Notes: generated from the sequence alone by a model not told the origin. Positions 4,831-51,007 are shown, numbered from the stretch's first letter. The stretch is DNA of 64,000 nucleotides from a virus (IMGVR_UViG_3300010334_000030:1-64000), one strand, 5' to 3'. Numbers and translations: made by a program.

Positions 4831-6036
4831 CTATTTCTTTTTGATCTTTTTGGTCTTTCTGTTATTCTTAACCTTCTCTTCTTCCGGATCCTTCGCTATA
4901 AATTTAGCAAGCTTCCAGGCTAGTCCAAACCAAAACTTAGCATTTTCGTAAGATCTTTTAATTCCTTTCCATTTCTCCTTTGTCCTTTCTATGATCCCTT
5001 TATCTAATGGTGTTTTTTGTTCCTGAATAGTGGAGAGATAAGAATCTAGGTCTTTTTTAATCTGATCTGCCCTTTTAACGATTTCTTTCTTGCCTATTTC
5101 ATATTTACTTTTGATCTCACTTAATCCTTTAATTCCTATTTTTTCTATTATAGAACTCTTTATTTCTCCAGTGTTTTTAGGGTCTGGTTTTTTTGCCCAT
5201 TTGAATATCCTATAAACACCATATAAAGGGAAAAGTGCAGACACACCGATTAAAAGCTTTAATTCCAATCCAGATTTAAGGTGATTCCAAAAAAGTGATG
5301 TTATGCACTCTTTTTTTAATTTAATAGATCCTGAATCCTTAACTGAGGTGGCAGTTAACTTTACGAAATTTTTAACGACGTCTATATCATTTTTAACCTT
5401 GGGTGTTTTCCATATGCTTATGCCTTTTGTTGTGATCCATTTCCCAATCTGTGCTACCGCATAAATTGTATTAGGCTCTACTGAAATAGTCGAAGAATTA
5501 GAAGACCCCGAGAATCCACTAATAATAGTTGCTGCTTGAAGCATCATTTTCGCTACCTCTTTCTGAACTACCCAAGCTCCGGATAACGTGTAAACCAAAG
5601 CCTTTCCGTCGGCAGCAGCTGCATGCTCTAAAAAGCTAAATCCACCATTAAGAAGTCCTTCTTTTTTTAGTGCTTCTATTTTTGTTTTTACCCCAGCCTT
5701 AGGAATTAGTACAACATATGGAAAATTTGCGCTGCCTTTTGGTTTTAAGGTAATAACCATTCCGGCTTGAAAGAGATCGTAGAAATTTGGGTTCTCGTAT
5801 ATTTTAGGTTTCGGTAAACCCTGTCCCTTTATAACATCCTCTTTTATCTTACCTGCTCCCAATAGATCAAACACATCGAAAACAGATTTTGGCCCTCCTG
5901 GGATTTTATAAGTGTTGGGATCAACTAATAGATCTTTAGGTTTAGCTACAATTGCCATCTTGCTTCCCTCCAATAGGAATTCTTCAGATTCATAAAGGGG
6001 ATCAAACTCAGAAAAGGATAATAGACGCGTTTCCAT
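4831..6036 (-). CDS. putative capsid-targeted internal protein, unknown function
   Basis: A 401-residue protein with no recognised enzymatic motif. The N-terminus (METRLLSFSEFDPLYES) fits a T4-like capsid-targeting sequence with a possible gp21-type cleavage LYE|S after residue 16 and another, LLE|G, after residue 23. The middle is Gly/Ala-rich with moderately hydrophobic stretches, including SGLELKLLIGVSALFPLYGV, which could be membrane-interacting. The C-terminal 120 residues are Lys-rich and helical, ending in a very basic KNNRKTKKIKKK tail that could bind DNA. A GATATATA box (6056-6063) sits 19 nt upstream and a terminator follows directly, so this is probably a single-gene late unit. Confidence 0.8.
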   Translation of the reverse strand: METRLLSFSEFDPLYESEEFLLEGSKMAIVAKPKDLLVDPNTYKIPGGPKSVFDVFDLLGAGKIKEDVIKGQGLPKPKIYENPNFYDLFQAGMVITLKPKGSANFPYVVLIPKAGVKTKIEALKKEGLLNGGFSFLEHAAAADGKALVYTLSGAWVVQKEVAKMMLQAATIISGFSGSSNSSTISVEPNTIYAVAQIGKWITTKGISIWKTPKVKNDIDVVKNFVKLTATSVKDSGSIKLKKECITSLFWNHLKSGLELKLLIGVSALFPLYGVYRIFKWAKKPDPKNTGEIKSSIIEKIGIKGLSEIKSKYEIGKKEIVKRADQIKKDLDSYLSTIQEQKTPLDKGIIERTKEKWKGIKRSYENAKFWFGLAWKLAKFIAKDPEEEKVKNNRKTKKIKKK

Positions 6037-14390: not shown

Positions 14391-14415
14391 TAAAGAAAAA
14401 TAGGGATTCCTATTT
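14391..14415 (-). terminator. probable terminator, AT-rich stem
   Basis: A 7-bp stem AAATAGG / CCTATTT with a 4-nt loop (14398-14415), followed on the minus strand by TTTTTCTTTA. It overlaps the stop codon of the 14410-14943 gene. The stem is weak, so termination may be partial. Confidence 0.5.
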
Positions 14416-14943
14416 GGTAGGAACGTAAGTAACCTGTTCTATCTGCTCTGGTAGAATGCAGATAGTGTAATCAGAAGCTAGTTCAGGTTGTCTCTTAGTT
14501 TTAATATAAAATGATCTGGGGATGGCGAAAACGCATTCAGCTCCGTCTTTTTGGCCAACCCCAGTCACTACAAATTCTACGTCGGTGAAAATATTGATAG
14601 CATCCGTATAATCATCTTCTGGTCTGTCGTCTCTTTCTGTTCTGCTTCCATAGATGGCATATTTTCTTTTAGCCATTCTTTCTCTTTCTCTTTCCGCTTC
14701 TCTTTTAATATACTCTGGAGCATTTTTACCTTGACTAGGTAATATAGTCTCAACAACAACCATTTCAATCTCGCCACTAGCCTGAGATCCTAAGAAAATG
14801 TTGATAATTTCGGTTAGATCTTCAGTAGGCACACTCATTTCAGGCTTTGAATCATGGCCTCTGTAATGTGCTTCGTTGTAAACTGGCACTTTGGCTTCGT
14901 TTAAGCTAGATTCATATGATTCAAATTCCAGAAGGTGTTTCAT
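14410..14943 (-). CDS. putative capsid-targeted protein, unknown function
   Basis: A 177-residue protein starting MKHLLEFESYESSLNEA, a close match to T4 internal-protein signals: basic and Leu/Phe/Tyr residues ending LNE|A, an ideal gp21-type cleavage site after residue 16. The remainder is mixed alpha/beta with a very charged middle (REAERERERMAKRK). No enzymatic motif is recognised. Its own GATATATA box lies inside the coding sequence of the upstream glycosyltransferase, 19 nt before the ATG, so it can be expressed separately as a late gene. Confidence 0.82.
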   Translation of the reverse strand: MKHLLEFESYESSLNEAKVPVYNEAHYRGHDSKPEMSVPTEDLTEIINIFLGSQASGEIEMVVVETILPSQGKNAPEYIKREAERERERMAKRKYAIYGSRTERDDRPEDDYTDAINIFTDVEFVVTGVGQKDGAECVFAIPRSFYIKTKRQPELASDYTICILPEQIEQVTYVPTK

Positions 14944-16881: not shown

Positions 16882-17496
16882 TTAAGATTTCTTTAATCCA
16901 AGTTTTTTAACAACAGCAGCTAGAACTTCATCTTTACCGCTCTCTGCCTCTACCTTAACCAACTTTCTGCACTTTTCATAGAAGTCAACTAGAGGTAAAG
17001 TTTTCTCCTCATATTCTTTGAATCTTTGATTTACTATCTCGTCACTAGAATCATCTTTTCTGTTCTCCTCTTTAGCTCTAGCCTTAATTCTATCCTTTGC
17101 TATCTCATTTGGCAGATCCAGATAAAAAGCATGATTCAGACCCAATCCCATTCTGCCTAACATTGTGTCTAATCTTCTAGCTTGTTTAATTGTTCTTGGA
17201 AATCCGTCGAGAATAATTCCTTTAGAAACGTCTAGAGATTTAAGTTCTTTTCTAAGTATTTTAACCATCATATCGTCAGGAATTAAATTCCCACCTTCGA
17301 TAATTTTCTTTAATTCCGGATCGTCGGAGTTTCTGATAATATCACCCGTTGAGATGTGTGAAAATCCGTAGGTCTTTTTTAATTCTTTCGATAAAGTTCC
17401 CTTACCTGAACCAGGAGCTCCAAGGACGATCATTATTTCACCCTGATCCGAAGATTCGTTAATTTCAAATTCTGAAAGCTTTTTAATCTTTGCCAT
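16882..17496 (-). CDS. adk: adenylate kinase with capsid-targeting-like N-terminus
   Basis: A 204-residue adenylate kinase (ATP + AMP to 2 ADP). P-loop VLGAPGSGKGTLSKEL (about 23-38), AMP-binding HISTGDIIR, DGFPRT and the lid/C-terminal R..DDSSDEIVNQRFKEYEEKTLPLVDFY are all present. The lid is the short form without zinc cysteines. Unusually, the protein has an extra N-terminal peptide (MAKIKKLSEFEINES) matching the capsid-targeting pattern of other proteins here, with INE|S after residue 14, just before the catalytic core. It is next to nrdA and would help nucleotide supply, either in the cell or, if packaged, on injection. Confidence 0.93.
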   Translation of the reverse strand: MAKIKKLSEFEINESSDQGEIMIVLGAPGSGKGTLSKELKKTYGFSHISTGDIIRNSDDPELKKIIEGGNLIPDDMMVKILRKELKSLDVSKGIILDGFPRTIKQARRLDTMLGRMGLGLNHAFYLDLPNEIAKDRIKARAKEENRKDDSSDEIVNQRFKEYEEKTLPLVDFYEKCRKLVKVEAESGKDEVLAAVVKKLGLKKS

Positions 17497-25930: not shown

Positions 25931-27805
25931 TTATTTAGACTCAGATTCTTCGAAAACGACATCTTCAACATTAGTATCTGCTGAAGGTTGTTCTGGGGTT
26001 TCCTGAGCTTGGCTGTAAATTCTGCTTGAGATTTCAGAAAGTTTCTGAGCCACTTCATTCATTTTAGCTTCAATGGCTTCTACATCCCCTTCTTCCTTTA
26101 CTTTTTTAAGCTCTTCAATCTGAGTAGAGATTTCTGTCTTCTCCTCATCAGTTAGCTTCTCGTCAAGATCCTTAGCCATTTTCTCTGCCTGGAAGATCAT
26201 AGAATCAGAATCGTTTGTAATTTTAACTTTCTTCAATCTATCCTGATCTGTCTTTTCGTTGTTTTTAGCCTCGTCTTTCATTTTTTGGATTTCATCGTCA
26301 CTAAGTTTAGATCCAGATTCAATTTTGATCTTTTGTTGTTTTCCTGTTCCTTGATCCTTAGCTGACACGTTAATGATACCATTAGCATCAATATCAAAGG
26401 TTACTTCGATTTTAGGAACCCCTCTTGGTGCTGGTGGGATATCAGTAAGCTGGAATTTACCAAGGGTTCTATTATCTGCTGCCATTGGTCTTTCCCCCTG
26501 AAGAACGTGAATGTCTACGGCTGGCTGACCATCTGAAGCTGTGCTAAAAACTTCGCTCTTGGTTAAAGGGATAGTTGAGTTGGATTCGATCAACTTGGTG
26601 AATACCCCACCCATAGTTTCGATACCAAGTGAAAGTGGGGTCACATCTAATAGCAAGACATCTTTAATGTCTCCGGCTAAAACCGCTCCCTGAATAGCAG
26701 CGCCCATTGCCACTACCTCGTCGGGATTAACATTCTTGGATGGCTTTTTGCCAAATAGCTTCTCCACTTCCTCTTGGACTTTGGGGATTCTTGTTGAACC
26801 ACCAACTAGGATAACTTCGTCAATATCAGATGCTTTTAATTTAGCATCAGCTAAAGCTTTAGTACAAGGTTTCAATGTTTTCTGAATTAAATCATCGCAC
26901 ATTGACTCGAACTGAGCTCTGGTAATTTTCTTTACAAAGTGTTTTGGACCTTCTGCACCAGCACTTAAGTATGGAAGGTTTATTTCAGTTTCAGCAGAAG
27001 CTGATAACTCAACTTTAGCTTTCTCTGCAGCTTCTCTGATTCTTTGGTAAGCCATAGAATCTTTAGAGGCATCAATTCCACTTTCCTCTTTGAAAGCTTC
27101 AACTATCCAATCGATAATTTTCTCATCAAAATTATCTCCACCTAAGTGGGTATCACCATTGGTTGAAAGCACTTCAAATACCCCATTACCAATTTCAAGA
27201 ATAGAGATATCAAAAGTACCACCACCTAAATCGTATACAGCCACTTTTAAGTCCTTTTCTCCTTTATCAAGACCATAAGCTAGGGCTGCTGCTGTAGGCT
27301 CGTTAATGATCCTTAAAACCTCCAATCCGGCAATTTCTCCAGCTTCCTTGGTGGCTTGTCTTTGACTGTCATTGAAATAAGCTGGAACGGTGATAACAGC
27401 TTGTTTAACTTCTTCACCTAAATACTCTTCTGCAGTCTTTTTAAGGTTCTGCAAAACCATAGCGGAGATCTCTTGTGGGATATAAGATCTTCCATTGGTG
27501 TCAACCACCACCTTTTCACCATCAGAAGACTTCCTCACTTTGTAAGGCATCTTTTTGGCCTCGTTTTTAACCTCGCTGTACTTAGATCCGATAAATCTCT
27601 TAACAGATGAGATTGTGTTCTCTGGATTGGTTACCGCCTGTCTTTTGGCTGGATCTCCAATTTTAATTTCCCCGTTTTTGAAACTCACAATACTTGGGGT
27701 TGTTCTTTTTCCTTCTTGGTTCACAATAACTACTGGTGCGTTTGCTTCCATTGTGGAAACGCAAGAGTTGGTTGTGCCAAGATCAATTCCGATTACTTTT
27801 GCCAT
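25931..27805 (-). CDS. dnaK: DnaK-type molecular chaperone (Hsp70)
   Basis: A 624-residue, full-length bacterial Hsp70. ATPase domain: [13 protein letters not shown] (5-17), [41 protein letters not shown] and [11 protein letters not shown]. The interdomain linker is [16 protein letters not shown], then the substrate-binding domain and helical lid. The tail is acidic ([13 protein letters not shown]). It refolds proteins with DnaJ and GrpE; dnaJ is phage-encoded at 379-1398, GrpE was not seen. Full-length dnaK in phage genomes is uncommon. It may help fold capsid or the very large fibre proteins here. It is a single-gene unit between terminators, with two inverted repeats in its 150-nt upstream region. 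Confidence 0.97.
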
Positions 27806-44637: not shown

Positions 44638-45177
44638 CTATCTGCTAATTAACACCGAATTTTTTGTAGATCCCTCTTGAACTCTCCAATTTTCACCTAG
44701 ATATGAAATAACTATAGATTTCATATATTCAATATAGGTTCCTTTACCTTGGAAAGAAAGATTTTGTTGGATTTCATCGTAGATTCTACTCACCTTTGGA
44801 TTCAATTCCAAATAATTCAAAATACATTTAGAACAAATTTCCATAAGTCTAGAAACTTCACCGCCTGAAGCTTCGAATTTTTCATCATGCTGATCAGGAA
44901 TCTCCTCTTTGTCAATTGCAAGATCCTCTATAATTTCCGGAGAGATTTGATTTAGAGCTAAAACGCAATATGAATTTTTAGCACCTGTGATCATTTCTTT
45001 ATCTGAATATTTTCCTATGGTTAAATGATATCCCATATGGCCTTTCTCATCTTCGCTCTCTATATTAAAGAAGTAGTGGTAAACATCACTAACTTTTTTT
45101 AGTAAAAATGGCGAAGTTCCAAATCCATCAGATTCATAAAGACCTGAATTGAATTCATTAAATCTTAATATTTTCAT
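44638..45177 (-). CDS. putative capsid-targeted protein, unknown function
   Basis: A 179-residue protein starting MKILRFNEFNSGLYESDGFG, a good capsid-targeting pattern with cleavage LYE|S after residue 15. The rest is a mixed alpha/beta domain (DVYHYFFNIESEDEKGHMGY; YCVLALNQISPEIIEDLAI). No motif is recognised. It is the last gene of an operon whose first two genes also have such signals, and it overlaps the ligase-nucleotidyltransferase gene by 20 nt. Confidence 0.8.
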   Translation of the reverse strand: MKILRFNEFNSGLYESDGFGTSPFLLKKVSDVYHYFFNIESEDEKGHMGYHLTIGKYSDKEMITGAKNSYCVLALNQISPEIIEDLAIDKEEIPDQHDEKFEASGGEVSRLMEICSKCILNYLELNPKVSRIYDEIQQNLSFQGKGTYIEYMKSIVISYLGENWRVQEGSTKNSVLISR

Positions 45178-47242
45178 CCTCTTGTTTATTATTTTTAGAT
45201 TTTTTTAGTGCTCTTCTTTTTGGTTTTTCCCCTTCTGTTAGACTTTCAGCGCTTGGTTTTTTTAATTCATCAGATTCTTTAAGTTCAACATCATTTAATG
45301 CAGTAACGAAAGACTGATAGAAAGATGCAACAGAAGCAGGAACCATTTTTTTAAATCCCAGAAAATCCTCATTTTTCAACTTCTCTCTCACGTCAGTAGA
45401 GGATGCAGATCTTGGAGTTTCTATGATTTTTATTTCTTGTGGGAAATCACTTCCGTGCTTTTTGAGATACTCTTCTTGTTTTTTATAGTCATCAACTCTA
45501 TCATCGCCTGCACCTATAGCTTTTATAATAAATCCATGTTCTTTAGCTGCACCATAAGCAATTCCTAATAATCCTCTGTTTACTATATAAAAACCTTTTA
45601 TTAAACTCTCTTTCTCTCTGACTAAACTCTCCATATATTTTCTAACTAAATCCAAACTAAATGGAGATTTTTTAGACTTACTGTGCCCTGGGTGAACTAC
45701 TGCTATTATACAAGGGAGATTGTTTTTCTCCTTCATAAAGGTAGCCATTTTTAAATGACCATTATGGAAAGGCTGAAATCTTCCAAGAATAACATTTACC
45801 GGTTCAAGCTCTTTCTTTTCCTCTTTATCTTCCTTCTTCTCATCCTTCTTAGAATCTTCAGTGAGTTTAGGTTTTCTTGATGTGTCTATTTTTTCAATAG
45901 CTGAAATAAATTCATTATATGAATAGAATTCTCCATCTTCCTCGTTTTCGACCTCACTAACATCTTCACTCTCGACAGTTAAATAATCTATCTTTCTTCT
46001 TCCCAGACTCTTTTTAAAGTCTAAAAATGAAGGTAAAGAAACAGACTCTGAAACATTCTTCTCTTTCTTTCCTGATATTCTTTTCTCCAACTGAGAAACT
46101 AGAGAATTGAATTGATCCATAATCGATTGTGTGATTATTCCACCTGGTCTCTTTTTTATCTTTCTGAAAGAATTAAGAATCAGCTTAAATAGGGATTCAA
46201 ATGATTCATCAAGATCAACATACTTTAAAACACGTTTGTCTTTGATCATTCCCTTGTTTAACCTAAAGTCATCTCTCTTAAGATACTCCGGTTCTTGGAA
46301 ATCTGCATTTTTATATTTAGAAGAATACTCGTCAAGAAATTTAGAAAAAACATCAGACATAAAAGAAACATATCTTTCGTCTTCAGTTTCACCGTCCATT
46401 GAGAATGAATCTACACCATTCTCTAAGATGAAATTCATAACGTCTAATATAGCTATACCTAAGAAATCACTCGGCTTATCCTCTCTTTTCTTCTTGGCCT
46501 TAGATTTAGCTAGCTCAGTGAAAACCGGATTTACCATCTTAGATAAAACTGGTTCGCCTTCTTCAACATCCTTACCAAATCTAAATACTATACCTTCGAT
46601 AGGTTTTTCTAAATCGTGGTTTAAAGCAGTAGTTTTAAGCTCAGGATTAAGAACCCCAATTATGAATGCAACAAAGCTTCTAGTTTTATATTCATTCACA
46701 AGGTCTTCAAATGGGGTTTGAAGAAAATTCATAATCTGAGATTTTTGATTTTCATCAAGTTCTCCCTGGAAAATTATCGGAGGTCTTTCAACACCAATAA
46801 GATCTGCCCAAGTATCAAGCTTCTCTTTATCTTGTATAGTACCCTGTGCATTTCCACTTAAATCTTTTCTGTGAACATAGGAAAGGATAAGATTGTTTTT
46901 AGGAACCCTATCGTAAACAATTTCAACTGGATTATTACTTGAAAAATACTCTAAGCCAAATCTCCATCCTCTAGGGATCTTTTGAATTACGTGAGGAGGA
47001 AGAGACTCGATATAGTTTATAGGCTTCTCGTAATATTTCATAAGAGTTCTATCAACGAGTGTAATTGGATTTCTTTGATCCCTTTTGTAAAAAAGAAATT
47101 TACCAGTTTCAATATCTCTTTCAAAAATAAATGCAGAACCATCCATCTTCTCATTCACAGTCACGTATGAGTTCAAAAGCTTATCTACGAATTCCTTGCC
47201 CTTCTTGTTATAGAGATCATATAAATGAACGATTCCTGACAT
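45158..47242 (-). CDS. fusion of ligase-like nucleotidyltransferase and HxGH cytidylyl/adenylyltransferase
   Basis: 694 residues. N-terminal domain: VTVNEKMDGSAFIF (motif I K-x-D-G, Lys32), RFGLEYFSS (motif III-like) and PIEGIVFRFG (motif IV-like), the pattern of ATP-dependent DNA/RNA ligases and other covalent nucleotidyltransferases. A 200-residue helical, charged linker follows. The C-terminal domain (from about residue 480) has NVILGRFQPFHNGHLKM, the HxGH signature, KSKKSPFSLDLV and SASSTDVREKL, as in nicotinamide-nucleotide adenylyltransferases and phosphopantetheine adenylyltransferases. A nucleic-acid-modifying or RNA-repair enzyme coupled to NAD+ metabolism is one reading. It lacks a capsid-targeting start although its neighbours have one. 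Substrates are unknown. Confidence 0.82.
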   Translation of the reverse strand: MSGIVHLYDLYNKKGKEFVDKLLNSYVTVNEKMDGSAFIFERDIETGKFLFYKRDQRNPITLVDRTLMKYYEKPINYIESLPPHVIQKIPRGWRFGLEYFSSNNPVEIVYDRVPKNNLILSYVHRKDLSGNAQGTIQDKEKLDTWADLIGVERPPIIFQGELDENQKSQIMNFLQTPFEDLVNEYKTRSFVAFIIGVLNPELKTTALNHDLEKPIEGIVFRFGKDVEEGEPVLSKMVNPVFTELAKSKAKKKREDKPSDFLGIAILDVMNFILENGVDSFSMDGETEDERYVSFMSDVFSKFLDEYSSKYKNADFQEPEYLKRDDFRLNKGMIKDKRVLKYVDLDESFESLFKLILNSFRKIKKRPGGIITQSIMDQFNSLVSQLEKRISGKKEKNVSESVSLPSFLDFKKSLGRRKIDYLTVESEDVSEVENEEDGEFYSYNEFISAIEKIDTSRKPKLTEDSKKDEKKEDKEEKKELEPVNVILGRFQPFHNGHLKMATFMKEKNNLPCIIAVVHPGHSKSKKSPFSLDLVRKYMESLVREKESLIKGFYIVNRGLLGIAYGAAKEHGFIIKAIGAGDDRVDDYKKQEEYLKKHGSDFPQEIKIIETPRSASSTDVREKLKNEDFLGFKKMVPASVASFYQSFVTALNDVELKESDELKKPSAESLTEGEKPKRRALKKSKNNKQEDENIKI

Positions 47243-47267: not shown

Positions 47268-48197
47268 TTATATTGTATTTATTTCACTCGGAACTGGTAA
47301 TCCAACTCTAGTTAGATATTCCAAAAATTTAGTTTTGATGTGAGGAAGCTGATCTCTCAATTCAAAATTAGGCGATGTGATAATCTTAAACACATCCTCA
47401 AATGTTTTAACGTCATTCTGAGAGTATCCCTGACCTAATGCGAAATCTATAAACTCCTGGGGATTATTAGTTACGAATCTTTCACTACCCGGAATTTTAG
47501 CTGCATTTTTAAGTCTTGCTTTAATCTTTCCTCTGTATGATTTAGTGTGCCAGAATAGTCCATCACTTAAAATCAGTACTGGTGTTTCGTAATCCATAAC
47601 CTGACCTTCATCATCTGTGTTTATAACTTCGGCTCTAGCTGATAATATAGCTGCTAATAACCAGTTACGGTGAGCAGATTTATATTTGCTTTCACCCTTT
47701 TTGTAATCAGGAGAATAGTAGATAAACTTAGACCATGTCATATCTGATAAAGGAATAAGATCTAACTGAACCTCACCTTTACCTGGATCTCCTTCTATTG
47801 GCCAGCCTAAACTAACTATATTAAGTCCTGACATTAATCTGATCTCCGGTTTAAATCCAAGAGATTCCTCTAGCTCAGCATCGAGTATATCAAAAACTCT
47901 CTTAGCACATTCCTTATATCCAATCCCCTCTTTTTGGGAAAACCAATTTCCATTATACCCAATATCAAGGTCACCAGACGTATCGTCTGGATTTTCTTTC
48001 TTCCCTATACTTCCAATAACAACATAATTGGTTCCTTCTGAATTTGGATCTATCTCTAATAGAGGGAATAATATATTTTTAATGTTTTCCATTGTTAAAG
48101 AAAATTCAGCCTCTCTAATTCTTCTTGAGCTTTTTATAGCAGCACCGCCCTCGAAGATTTTAGAGAATCCAGAAAAATTTAAAATCTTACTTTTCAT
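47268..48197 (-). CDS. polymerase-beta-fold nucleotidyltransferase with capsid-targeting N-terminus
   Basis: 309 residues. The nucleotidyltransferase core has VVIGSIGKKENPDDTSGDLD (G-S at 62-63; Asp76 and Asp78 as the DxD) and a third acid in VQLDLIPL (Asp146). The C-terminal part is helical. The fold covers tRNA/antibiotic nucleotidyltransferases, MNT toxins and others, so the target is unknown. The N-terminus MKSKILNFSGFSKIFEGG fits the capsid-targeting pattern, with IFE|G after residue 16. If packaged, it would be injected with DNA and could modify host molecules, as T4 Alt does by a different chemistry. It overlaps its upstream gene by 11 nt. Confidence 0.78.
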   Translation of the reverse strand: MKSKILNFSGFSKIFEGGAAIKSSRRIREAEFSLTMENIKNILFPLLEIDPNSEGTNYVVIGSIGKKENPDDTSGDLDIGYNGNWFSQKEGIGYKECAKRVFDILDAELEESLGFKPEIRLMSGLNIVSLGWPIEGDPGKGEVQLDLIPLSDMTWSKFIYYSPDYKKGESKYKSAHRNWLLAAILSARAEVINTDDEGQVMDYETPVLILSDGLFWHTKSYRGKIKARLKNAAKIPGSERFVTNNPQEFIDFALGQGYSQNDVKTFEDVFKIITSPNFELRDQLPHIKTKFLEYLTRVGLPVPSEINTI

Positions 48198-48756
48198 AGG
48201 GCCTTAATCTGTCATAATATCTTTCCATAGCTCCACTTAAATAGTCGCTGTAAACTCTTTCGTCTCCATTCTTAGGATTTTCCGGGTCGTATCCCTTGCC
48301 AAAATAACCTTTCCCTTTTAAAACACCAGAGGTGTAGAAATCTTGGGCATCCTTTTGGGTTACATTTTTTCCTTTAATGTTTTTAGCTTCCCAGCTATCT
48401 AAAACATCATCTTTCTTCTGCTCCACTCTATCTTTAGACATCTTAGCAAATGTGTCTTTATTATCCCCAGTTGAGAAGAAATCAGCTACGGCAGCACCAG
48501 CACTGAATATCAATCTACCAAATAAAGAAAAAACATTTTTTGCTATGTTAACAGGATCTTCCCCACTATTTTGATAAGAATCTCCCTTTCTATATTCAAT
48601 GTCACTTCTAAGACCAGATGACATTCCCCTCATCCATCTGCTAAATTTGGTTTTTCCTTTATCAGATGGTGCATATTCTGAAGATCTCCCTCTTGAATAA
48701 TACCTGCTAGATTCACTAATGGATTCAGAAAAAGCCTCGAATTTTTTAATTCTCAT
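48187..48756 (-). CDS. putative capsid-targeted protein, first gene of payload operon
   Basis: A 189-residue protein beginning MRIKKFEAFSESISESSRYY, with cleavage ISE|S after residue 15. The remainder is basic and Tyr/Ser/Gly-rich, with a moderately hydrophobic helix (FSLFGRLIFSAGAAVADFF) in the middle that may contact membranes. No enzymatic motif is seen. A GATATATA box is 20 nt upstream. Confidence 0.8.
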   Translation of the reverse strand: MRIKKFEAFSESISESSRYYSRGRSSEYAPSDKGKTKFSRWMRGMSSGLRSDIEYRKGDSYQNSGEDPVNIAKNVFSLFGRLIFSAGAAVADFFSTGDNKDTFAKMSKDRVEQKKDDVLDSWEAKNIKGKNVTQKDAQDFYTSGVLKGKGYFGKGYDPENPKNGDERVYSDYLSGAMERYYDRLRPYEK

Positions 48757-50317: not shown

Positions 50318-51007
50318 TTATTCTTTATTTTTATAAGACCATAAAAATCCACCTGCACTTTTACCCCTTCCGTTTAAAATTTTAGAAATAGAGCAAACCC
50401 CAGTTTTTTCTTGTGCCTCTTTAATTGATTCAAACTCATTAATAAAAGCTCCGGACATATCCATTTGAATAACAGGCTTACTTCTAGATTTTATCATTTT
50501 ATTTATACTATCTTGAGAAAATTTGAATCCAAGGGTTCTTTTGTTACCCTTCATTGATTCATGAATTTTTTTTAAATGTTTTGATTGGTTTTCAGTAAGA
50601 ATACCTTTTTTGGAAAGCCCCAGATTTTTTCTATGCTCCTCCGTAAAGAATCTATTTCCATTTCCCTCCCCACCATTACTAAGATTTCTTAAAGGTCCAT
50701 TTTTTAAATCAAATCTACCTATTGTCACTATCATTTCATTCTCTATGGAAAATGAATCTTTCTCATTAAGATTCTCACTATATTTAATTATTACCGGCTC
50801 CAATCCGCAATCCAGTATTTTTTTAATTATATGATACTTAGGAAGATTCGAATATTTCCCGCGTTTAACTTTCTGTAAATGTATTCTGCTTCTAAAATTC
50901 CTACCCTTCCCTACATAAAAAGGCTCATATTCAAAGATATACTTCCCGTAAGCCCAATTTCCAGGTTTTCTTGGATCTAAATAAACATAAACATAATAAT
51001 TATCCAC
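50318..51007 (-). CDS. GIY-YIG homing endonuclease with NUMOD domains
   Basis: 229 residues from a GTG start. The GIY-YIG domain (about 1-100) has YVYVYLDPR and FYVGKGRNFRSR with catalytic Tyr/Arg, and ENEMI with the metal Glu. Two NUMOD3-type repeats (RFFTEEHRKNLGLSKKG; RTLGFKFSQDSINKMI) are followed by a C-terminal NUMOD1 DNA-recognition module (KPVIQMDMSGAFINEF ... KILNGRGKSAGGFLWSY). It is a free-standing, mobile endonuclease inserted between uvsW and the uvsY-like gene, which are neighbours in T4. No intron boundary was visible. Confidence 0.95.
   Translation of the reverse strand: MDNYYVYVYLDPRKPGNWAYGKYIFEYEPFYVGKGRNFRSRIHLQKVKRGKYSNLPKYHIIKKILDCGLEPVIIKYSENLNEKDSFSIENEMIVTIGRFDLKNGPLRNLSNGGEGNGNRFFTEEHRKNLGLSKKGILTENQSKHLKKIHESMKGNKRTLGFKFSQDSINKMIKSRSKPVIQMDMSGAFINEFESIKEAQEKTGVCSISKILNGRGKSAGGFLWSYKNKE

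Follow-up and report, generated by a model that had tools for sequence, protein, structure and literature searches.

The 64,000-nucleotide stretch of viral DNA analysed here (IMGVR_UViG_3300010334_000030:1-64000; hereafter the window) encodes, on its minus strand at 45158..47242 including the stop codon, a protein of 694 residues in which an RNA ligase resembling T4 RNA ligase 2 (Rnl2) is fused to an HxGH nucleotidyltransferase domain. We give about an even chance to the explanation that this fusion and the neighbouring DNA polymerase beta (pol-beta)-type nucleotidyltransferase form an RNA-end-repair module that is packaged in the phage head and probably processed by a protease. A broader version, to which we would grant rather less than even chances, is that the T4-type heads of a large group of jumbo phages deliver a pre-made repair kit, made up of the pol-beta enzyme and a ligase/HxGH polyprotein with internal targeting signals that is cut by the prohead protease, and that T4 rnlB is a relic of the locus.

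A single open reading frame with exactly these bounds had already been reported in an earlier, sequence-only reading of the window. An AlphaFold2 model built from 33 homologues is confident over residues 1-395 and 480-650, and the predicted local distance difference test score (pLDDT) is below 50 across most of residues 394-476. Along the chain, the Rnl2-like ligase (residues 1-395) is followed by a disordered linker (394-479) and by an NMNAT/PPAT-like HxGH domain (480-655). The ligase-type covalent nucleotidyltransferase fold at the N-terminus, for which the sequence-only reading had named structure prediction as the check, and the HxGH domain at the C-terminus are both borne out, as is the presence of a charged linker, which measures about 85 residues and not the 200 first proposed. 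That reading had the folds right and overlooked the pol-beta neighbour, the synteny with T4 rnlB and the capsid-targeting-like sequences. Relatives of the fusion are encoded by 78 independent IMG/VR contigs and every full-length copy carries both domains, so that an artefact of frame-joining, assembly or chance was rejected.

The ligase part (46058..47242, minus strand) includes a confidently modelled helical portion at residues 239-390, ahead of the linker. Upon comparison of its model with the PDB by Foldseek, the best match is full-length T4 Rnl2 (2hvq, E value 2e-8; 1s68, TMt 0.57), and further matches include the N-terminal domain of T4 RNA ligase 2 and the adenylyltransferase domains of tRNA ligases. 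The Rnl2-type motifs are found in the form of EKMDG at residues 31-35, YKRDQ at 52-56 with the Ia arginine, FGLEYF at 95-100 with the IIIa glutamate, and IEGIVF at 215-220 with the EG of motif IV, and the motif I lysine, these two residues and the EG are unbroken throughout the main clade. In particular, motif I (E31-K32-M-D-G35, 47138..47152, minus strand) aligns with E34-K35-I-H-G of T4 Rnl2, which makes K32 the presumed lysyl-AMP site, and the N-termini of the T4 and window enzymes can be aligned over SLENHYNSKFIEKL and HLYDLYNKKGKEFVDKL and, around motif I, over EKIHGTNF and EKMDGSAF. The Pfam family RNA_ligase (PF09414) is matched by 22 of the 33 homologues at E ≤ 0.01 (best E 1.6e-7), the window copy scoring below the cut-off (residues 26-225, E 0.0012, 19.5 bits versus 27). 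NAD+-dependent ligases (NAD+, nicotinamide adenine dinucleotide) carry a domain Ia that binds nicotinamide mononucleotide (NMN); because only 31 residues precede the motif I lysine there is no room for such a domain here, and with the fold match being Rnl2 an NAD+-dependent ligase was rejected. On the model, the ligase part is of the ATP-type Rnl2 fold, whose similarity to RNA ligases suggests RNA as the substrate. Weak Pfam matches to Peptidase_U32 and to a POT1-type family were below cut-off and disregarded.

The HxGH adenylyl/cytidylyltransferase domain (45278..45805, minus strand) contains the motif GRFQPFHNGH at residues 487-496 (45755..45784) and matches the Pfam family CTP_transf_like (PF01467) over residues 485-621 with an E value of 1.2e-7 and 32.4 bits, above the cut-off of 21, as do 30 of the 33 homologues; TIGR00125 (cyt_tran_rel) is also passed (33.1 versus 27.7). 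In the PDB, the last part of the model finds NadM (3e-5), archaeal NMNAT, PPAT and other HxGH enzymes at E values of 3e-5 to 3e-4, and the closest sequence relatives are archaeal and NadM-type NMNATs. The equivalog and subfamily cut-offs for NMNAT are missed (NF002243, 28.6 versus 127 bits; TIGR01527, 22.1 versus 181.2). Judged by these profiles, the domain belongs to the CTP_transf_like/cyt_tran_rel superfamily, and they lend no support to placing it in the NadM/archaeal NMNAT family. Catalytic motifs of both domains are unbroken in about 29 of 35 non-redundant homologues.

The neighbouring gene (47268..48197, minus strand) encodes the pol-beta-type nucleotidyltransferase, a protein of 309 residues with the pattern G62-S63...D76xD78...D146, in which G62, S63, D76, D78 and D146 are invariant across 33 homologues. 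Its AlphaFold2 model has a pLDDT of 89. No Pfam family, the RlaP profile included, is matched at E ≤ 1, and the protein thus represents a family separate from RlaP or very distant from it. In nearly all main-clade loci the gene lies directly before the fusion, or one small gene away, and in another lineage (L163, L165, L166, L167, L180, L181) the HxGH enzyme, the pol-beta enzyme and the ligase each have a gene of their own, and these three genes are neighbours arranged in another order. The two proteins also degenerate together. Wherever the pol-beta gene is present the motifs of the fusion are all intact, and in the three clades that lack it the fusion has broken motifs: L025 has a changed R54 and has lost the GxDR motif, the L051 group has lost the HxGH domain and kept EKMDG, and the L055 group has K32 replaced by N, E217 lost and SGTEVR altered (L058, cut off upstream, was left out of this count). 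This joint loss, in a small sample of three clades, is suggestive of a joint function.

The locus itself resembles that of T4. The genes of the window are ordered as uvsY-like (51057), GIY-YIG (50318), uvsW-type helicase (48791), a small protein (48187), pol-beta (47268) and the fusion (45158); in T4, rnlB is flanked by gene 24 on one side and by hoc/inh/uvsW/uvsY on the other, and a GIY-YIG gene is likewise present beside uvsW. We consider it probable that T4 rnlB and the window ligase are related and share a locus. Between uvsY and uvsW of the window lies a GIY-YIG/NUMOD homing-endonuclease gene (50318-51007, minus strand), comparable to segE beside uvsW in T4; most relatives lack it, and L060 and L072 have it. 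A search for local repair substrates found neither tRNAs nor tmRNA, either in the window or elsewhere on the contig.

Several proteins of the locus begin with a sequence of the type FxxF...xE↓S/G/A (the arrow marking the predicted cut), which resembles the capsid-targeting leaders of T4. In T4, internal proteins enter the prohead by means of an N-terminal targeting sequence of about 10 residues and the protease gp21 cleaves after glutamate (PMC9026906, PMC5694885); in IPIII, targeting is affected by residues 4 and 7, and processing by residues 8 and 10 (PMC9026906). The predicted leader of the pol-beta protein (48150..48197, minus strand) is MKSKILNFSGFSKIFE↓GGAAIK; residues 1-17 are disordered in the model, and the motif is found in 46 of 47 homologues with E16, G17 and G18 invariant. 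Capsid-targeting-like N-termini are also carried by the 189-residue protein at 48187..48756 (MRIKKFEAFSESISE↓S; 25 of 41 homologues) and by the 179-residue protein at 44638..45177 (MKILRFNEFNSGLYE↓S; 38 of 50), both on the minus strand, the latter gene overlapping the fusion gene by 20 bases. In one relative (L004:6420-8987) the fusion runs in frame into the homologue of 44638-45177 to give 855 residues, either a true fusion or a sequence error. In control sets of homologues, the motif occurs zero times in UvsW, UvsY and six other flanking families. With a regular expression picked after viewing examples, leaders are counted on 14 of the 133 open reading frames of the contig, versus 2.3 ± 1.5 with shuffled N-termini. 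On other material, the expression gave 6 versus 0.95 in huge phages, 4 versus 0.6 in divergent clades, 1 versus 0.4 in the phages Moby, X1, CP220 and Va1, and nothing in cyanophages. Because T4-like FxxFLTE leaders do not contain the gap that it requires, it was loosened for the stand-alone HxGH homologues, which start with MKHIKLFEQFINE↓A and similar sequences and have a leader in 14 of 15 cases (versus 2.5 ± 1.4). The contig also encodes a gp21-type protease (PF03420, above cut-off, G000 123781-124122) and a gp23-type capsid protein with the candidate site ...HSLNE↓SAGA, and a gene near the latter starts with MKNIPSFNEFKKYDSLLE↓S. T4 gp23 contains FGSFLTEAEIGG, in which the known cut falls after the E.

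The linker of the fusion (residues 394-479, 45806..46063, minus strand) is acidic and otherwise variable among homologues, and three islands stand conserved within it. Island 1 (V-S-E399↓S400, residues 397-400, 46043..46054), directly after the ligase, is a predicted prohead-protease-type site; E399 is invariant in A1, and the pattern [V/I/T]xE↓S is present in most homologues. Island 2 (PSFLDFKK...DYLTVES, residues 404-425, 45968..46033), with the consensus PSFLDFKK...Y(L/V/I)TxE(S/D/E/N), is capsid-targeting-like and similar to the N-terminus of a scaffold-like protein, MKNIPSFNEFKKYDSLLES, and to the tail of stand-alone ligases (LLTFSQFL). Island 3 (YSYNEFISAIE, residues 440-450, 45893..45925), with the consensus (Y/F)S(Y/F)NEFISxLE, matches the leader of stand-alone HxGH proteins (KLFEQFINE↓A). 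The pol-beta proteins of L166, L180 and L181 have two leaders separated by an extra segment, and internal copies of leaders thus arise naturally. From these likenesses and this precedent we infer targeting signals within the linker, which would probably be the junction of two capsid-targeted proteins, with E399↓S400 as the predicted cut site.

If so, the pol-beta protein, by its N-terminal leader, and the fusion, by its linker islands, would be drawn into the scaffold core of a T4-type prohead. The gp21-type protease, cutting after glutamate, would free the pol-beta enzyme of its leader, and the linker would probably be cut near E399↓S400, leaving the ligase and the HxGH enzyme separated or loosely tethered. 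The enzymes would then be injected together with the DNA, after which the pol-beta enzyme may rebuild RNA 3' ends within the host and the ligase may seal them, for example in tRNAs cut by host defence nucleases, and the HxGH enzyme may aid the same process by adenylylating (or cytidylylating) a small substrate, likeliest NMN or a related phosphate.

A number of observations weigh against this explanation. The ligase lacks a leader at its N-terminus, a strict hydrophobic-x-E↓S/G/A site does not in every case end islands 2 and 3, and the likeness of the leaders is that of a short motif. Motif V of the ligase has a single lysine, K235 (SKMV), where Rnl2 has KxK; profile similarity of the ligase part is weak both to Rnl2 (P 0.03, supportive only) and to its counterparts in the phages CP220 and Va1 (P about 0.02-0.03). 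The Foldseek matches of the pol-beta protein are modest (E 6e-3 and weaker), mainly to the RNA 3'-end enzymes CutA, Cid1 and TUT4/7, with DNA polymerases beta and mu among the weaker ones, and the substrate of the HxGH enzyme is one that we infer. Catalysis does not seem to be always under selection, because ligase domains without the catalytic lysine persist in the ENLDG clade, in the 462-kb phage and in the 635-735-kb phages, and because the stand-alone lineage mostly has KVQA instead of KxDG. We know of no virion proteomics for this phage group.

The absence of a leader from the fusion, and likewise from T4 Rnl2, favours instead ordinary intracellular RNA repair, in which the same module would be synthesised once infection has begun and would not enter the head, the linker being merely a flexible tether. 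T4 expresses its own tRNA repair once it has infected the cell. This alternative is nonetheless unlikely, although it retains real weight, in view of the leaders on the pol-beta and stand-alone HxGH proteins, the conserved islands and the gp21 and gp23 homologues of the contig. In addition, a cytidylyltransferase was detected in virions of the cyanophage S-CREM2, with the authors' caution on carry-over (PMC10665884).

The kinship of the HxGH domain with archaeal and NadM-type NMNATs would fit a module of NAD+ metabolism in which the domain converts NMN to NAD+ to offset defences that deplete NAD+, with the ligase as its partner in targeting or regulation, and phages are known to encode NAD+ salvage (PMC9503650). 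We consider this doubtful, as the NMNAT equivalog cut-offs are far off, no NadV partner is seen beside the HxGH domain, whose constant partners are the ligase and the pol-beta enzyme, and the L051 clade retains EKMDG without any HxGH domain. The related proposal of NAD+ regeneration coupled to ligation, put forward in the sequence-only reading, found no support given the ATP-type fold, the lack of space for domain Ia and the same failed cut-offs. A pol-beta enzyme and a ligase could also constitute a gap-repair pair that, once packaged, fills gaps and seals nicks of the injected DNA; uvsW and uvsY next to them act on DNA, and DNA polymerases beta and mu are found among the weaker structural matches, but the top matches are an RNA ligase and RNA terminal nucleotidyltransferases, making DNA-end repair on entry very improbable. 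Hardly credible is a mainly structural role, as a ligase- and HxGH-fold scaffold or nucleic-acid binder of the head with an activity that is secondary and repeatedly lost, since dead ligase domains do persist in the ENLDG clade and the 462-735-kb phages but most homologues keep the catalytic motifs of both domains intact.

The enzymes of the proposed repair module can be followed into other phages to different extents. Distant fusions down to about 22-35% identity were added by profile search, and a 462-kb metagenomic phage has the fusion as well; the 635-735-kb phages (L081-L084) have a ligase-like domain in which the lysine has given way to another residue (EDIQG, EDVQG, ENIQG), no HxGH domain and a leader-like LLDFGDFF segment at the end. 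No relative was found in the bacterial and archaeal genome contigs searched, and DNA comparison gave no close isolate. In Campylobacter phage CP220 (CPT_0026, 503 residues) and Vibrio phage Va1 (Va1_166, 484 residues), a KxDG ligase-like part (EKYDG and EHKTDG, respectively) precedes an HxGH domain as in the fusion; the HxGH parts are clearly homologous and the ligase parts have their motifs in the same order. Unlike the fusion, these proteins have a short linker and a partly degenerate HxGH motif and are annotated as hypothetical or nucleotidylyl transferase. In Stenotrophomonas phage Moby and Xanthomonas phage X1, the ligase-like and HxGH proteins are encoded separately by adjacent genes, and two genes upstream of the ligase-like one a pol-beta-like protein with GS...DxD is encoded. 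In T4-like cyanophages, the DUF6267 (PF19782) protein, with relatives in 470 phage records, has a K(Y/W/I)DG motif, and an HxGH enzyme lies near it in three of the five loci read (a 'cytitidyltransferase' in S-RIM50, S-RIM32 and Melnitz-1, not in the stretches read of P-SSM5 and S-N03); the HxGH leader of S-RIM50, MKKFSAFLTE↓A, is like those of stand-alone HxGH proteins. This cassette differs from the fusion in having separate genes, no recognised pol-beta enzyme and a ligase homology by motifs only. DUF6267 of T4-like cyanophages may be an overlooked nucleotidyltransferase/ligase family. Profile-profile comparison among the ligase groups (that of the window, CP220/Va1, DUF6267 and Moby/X1) is too weak to prove homology by itself, and kinship between them thus rests on motifs and on a Foldseek match to the 484-residue viral protein A0A410T6C5, equated with Va1_166 through equal length only.

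Further families accompany these cassettes. DUF6267 proteins at L095:3851-4750, L117:3456-4703 and L118:3480-4679 have ligase-like KxDG, EG(F/Y)V and KLV(D/N)R motifs. A second ligase-like family is encoded near the same cassettes at L080:4704-5969 (EKLDG), L174:994-2307 and L179:9-1190 (EKTDG), with the leader ...E↓GG(S/A)YGHL(N/A)HPFED in L080 and L174. Proteins with a D...(S/E)xK pattern seen by eye, possibly PD-(D/E)XK-like, are found at L085:3276-4220, L095:2951-3781, L117:2378-3463 and L093:5465-6259, adjoining ligase or HxGH genes in Moby, S-RIM50, Melnitz-1 and Va1. Elsewhere in the window, an adenylate kinase (16882-17496, minus strand; PF00406, E 1.3e-38) has the capsid-targeting-like N-terminus MAKIKKLSEFEINE↓SS and is possibly packaged in the virion, and two further proteins (4831-6036 and 14410-14943, minus strand) have the leaders LLSFSEFDPLYE↓S and MKHLLEFESYESSLNE↓A. 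DnaK-like (25931-27805, phrog_22485) and DnaJ-like (379-1398) proteins are encoded as well, both on the minus strand.

Each component of this system is of a known kind; it is their assembly that appears to be new. T4 Rnl2 (rnlB/gp24.1) shares with the window ligase the fold, the motif I lysine, the Ia arginine, FG.E, the EG of motif IV, a helical C-terminal part and a genome position near uvsW/uvsY, and differs in standing alone, without an HxGH domain or linker signals, and in its motif V. The HxGH domain has the GRFQPFHxGH, PF and SGTEVR-type motifs and the fold of NadM/archaeal NMNAT, PPAT, FAD synthetase and TmcAL, but it is joined to a ligase and not to a Nudix or kinase domain, and it scores far below the NMNAT/PPAT equivalog cut-offs. 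RlaP was reportedly named in a 2016 survey of RNA repair. The pol-beta neighbour is like RlaP in its catalytic GS...DxD...D, its gene beside an RNA ligase and its presumed role in 3'-end rebuilding, and unlike it in the profile searches and the predicted capsid-targeting leader; phage RNA ligases with RlaP enzymes are regarded as tRNA repair against anticodon nucleases (PMC7824862). The leaders recall T4 IPI-III and Alt in the short aromatic N-terminal sequence, cleavage after Glu and a gp21-type protease (PMC9026906, PMC3012670), the differences being a cargo that is an RNA-repair-like enzyme set and, for the fusion, predicted signals that are internal. In the literature searched, the combination of ligase and HxGH domain, the pol-beta partner in its present form and packaging signals on either are undescribed, as the sequence-only reading had supposed for the first of these, and an earlier mention is possible.

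What T4 RNA ligase 2 does in vivo is, to our knowledge, not yet settled. The locus described here gives its probable relatives two constant partners and a possible site of action, namely the virion, at injection. Candidates that can be tested are available in culturable phages, including Stenotrophomonas phage Moby, Xanthomonas phage X1, Vibrio phage Va1, cyanophages and Methylophilales phage Melnitz-1. If the packaged repair module is real, phages would make use of a polyprotein strategy with internal capsid-targeting signals, and would arrive equipped to reverse RNA damage inflicted by host defence ahead of gene expression.

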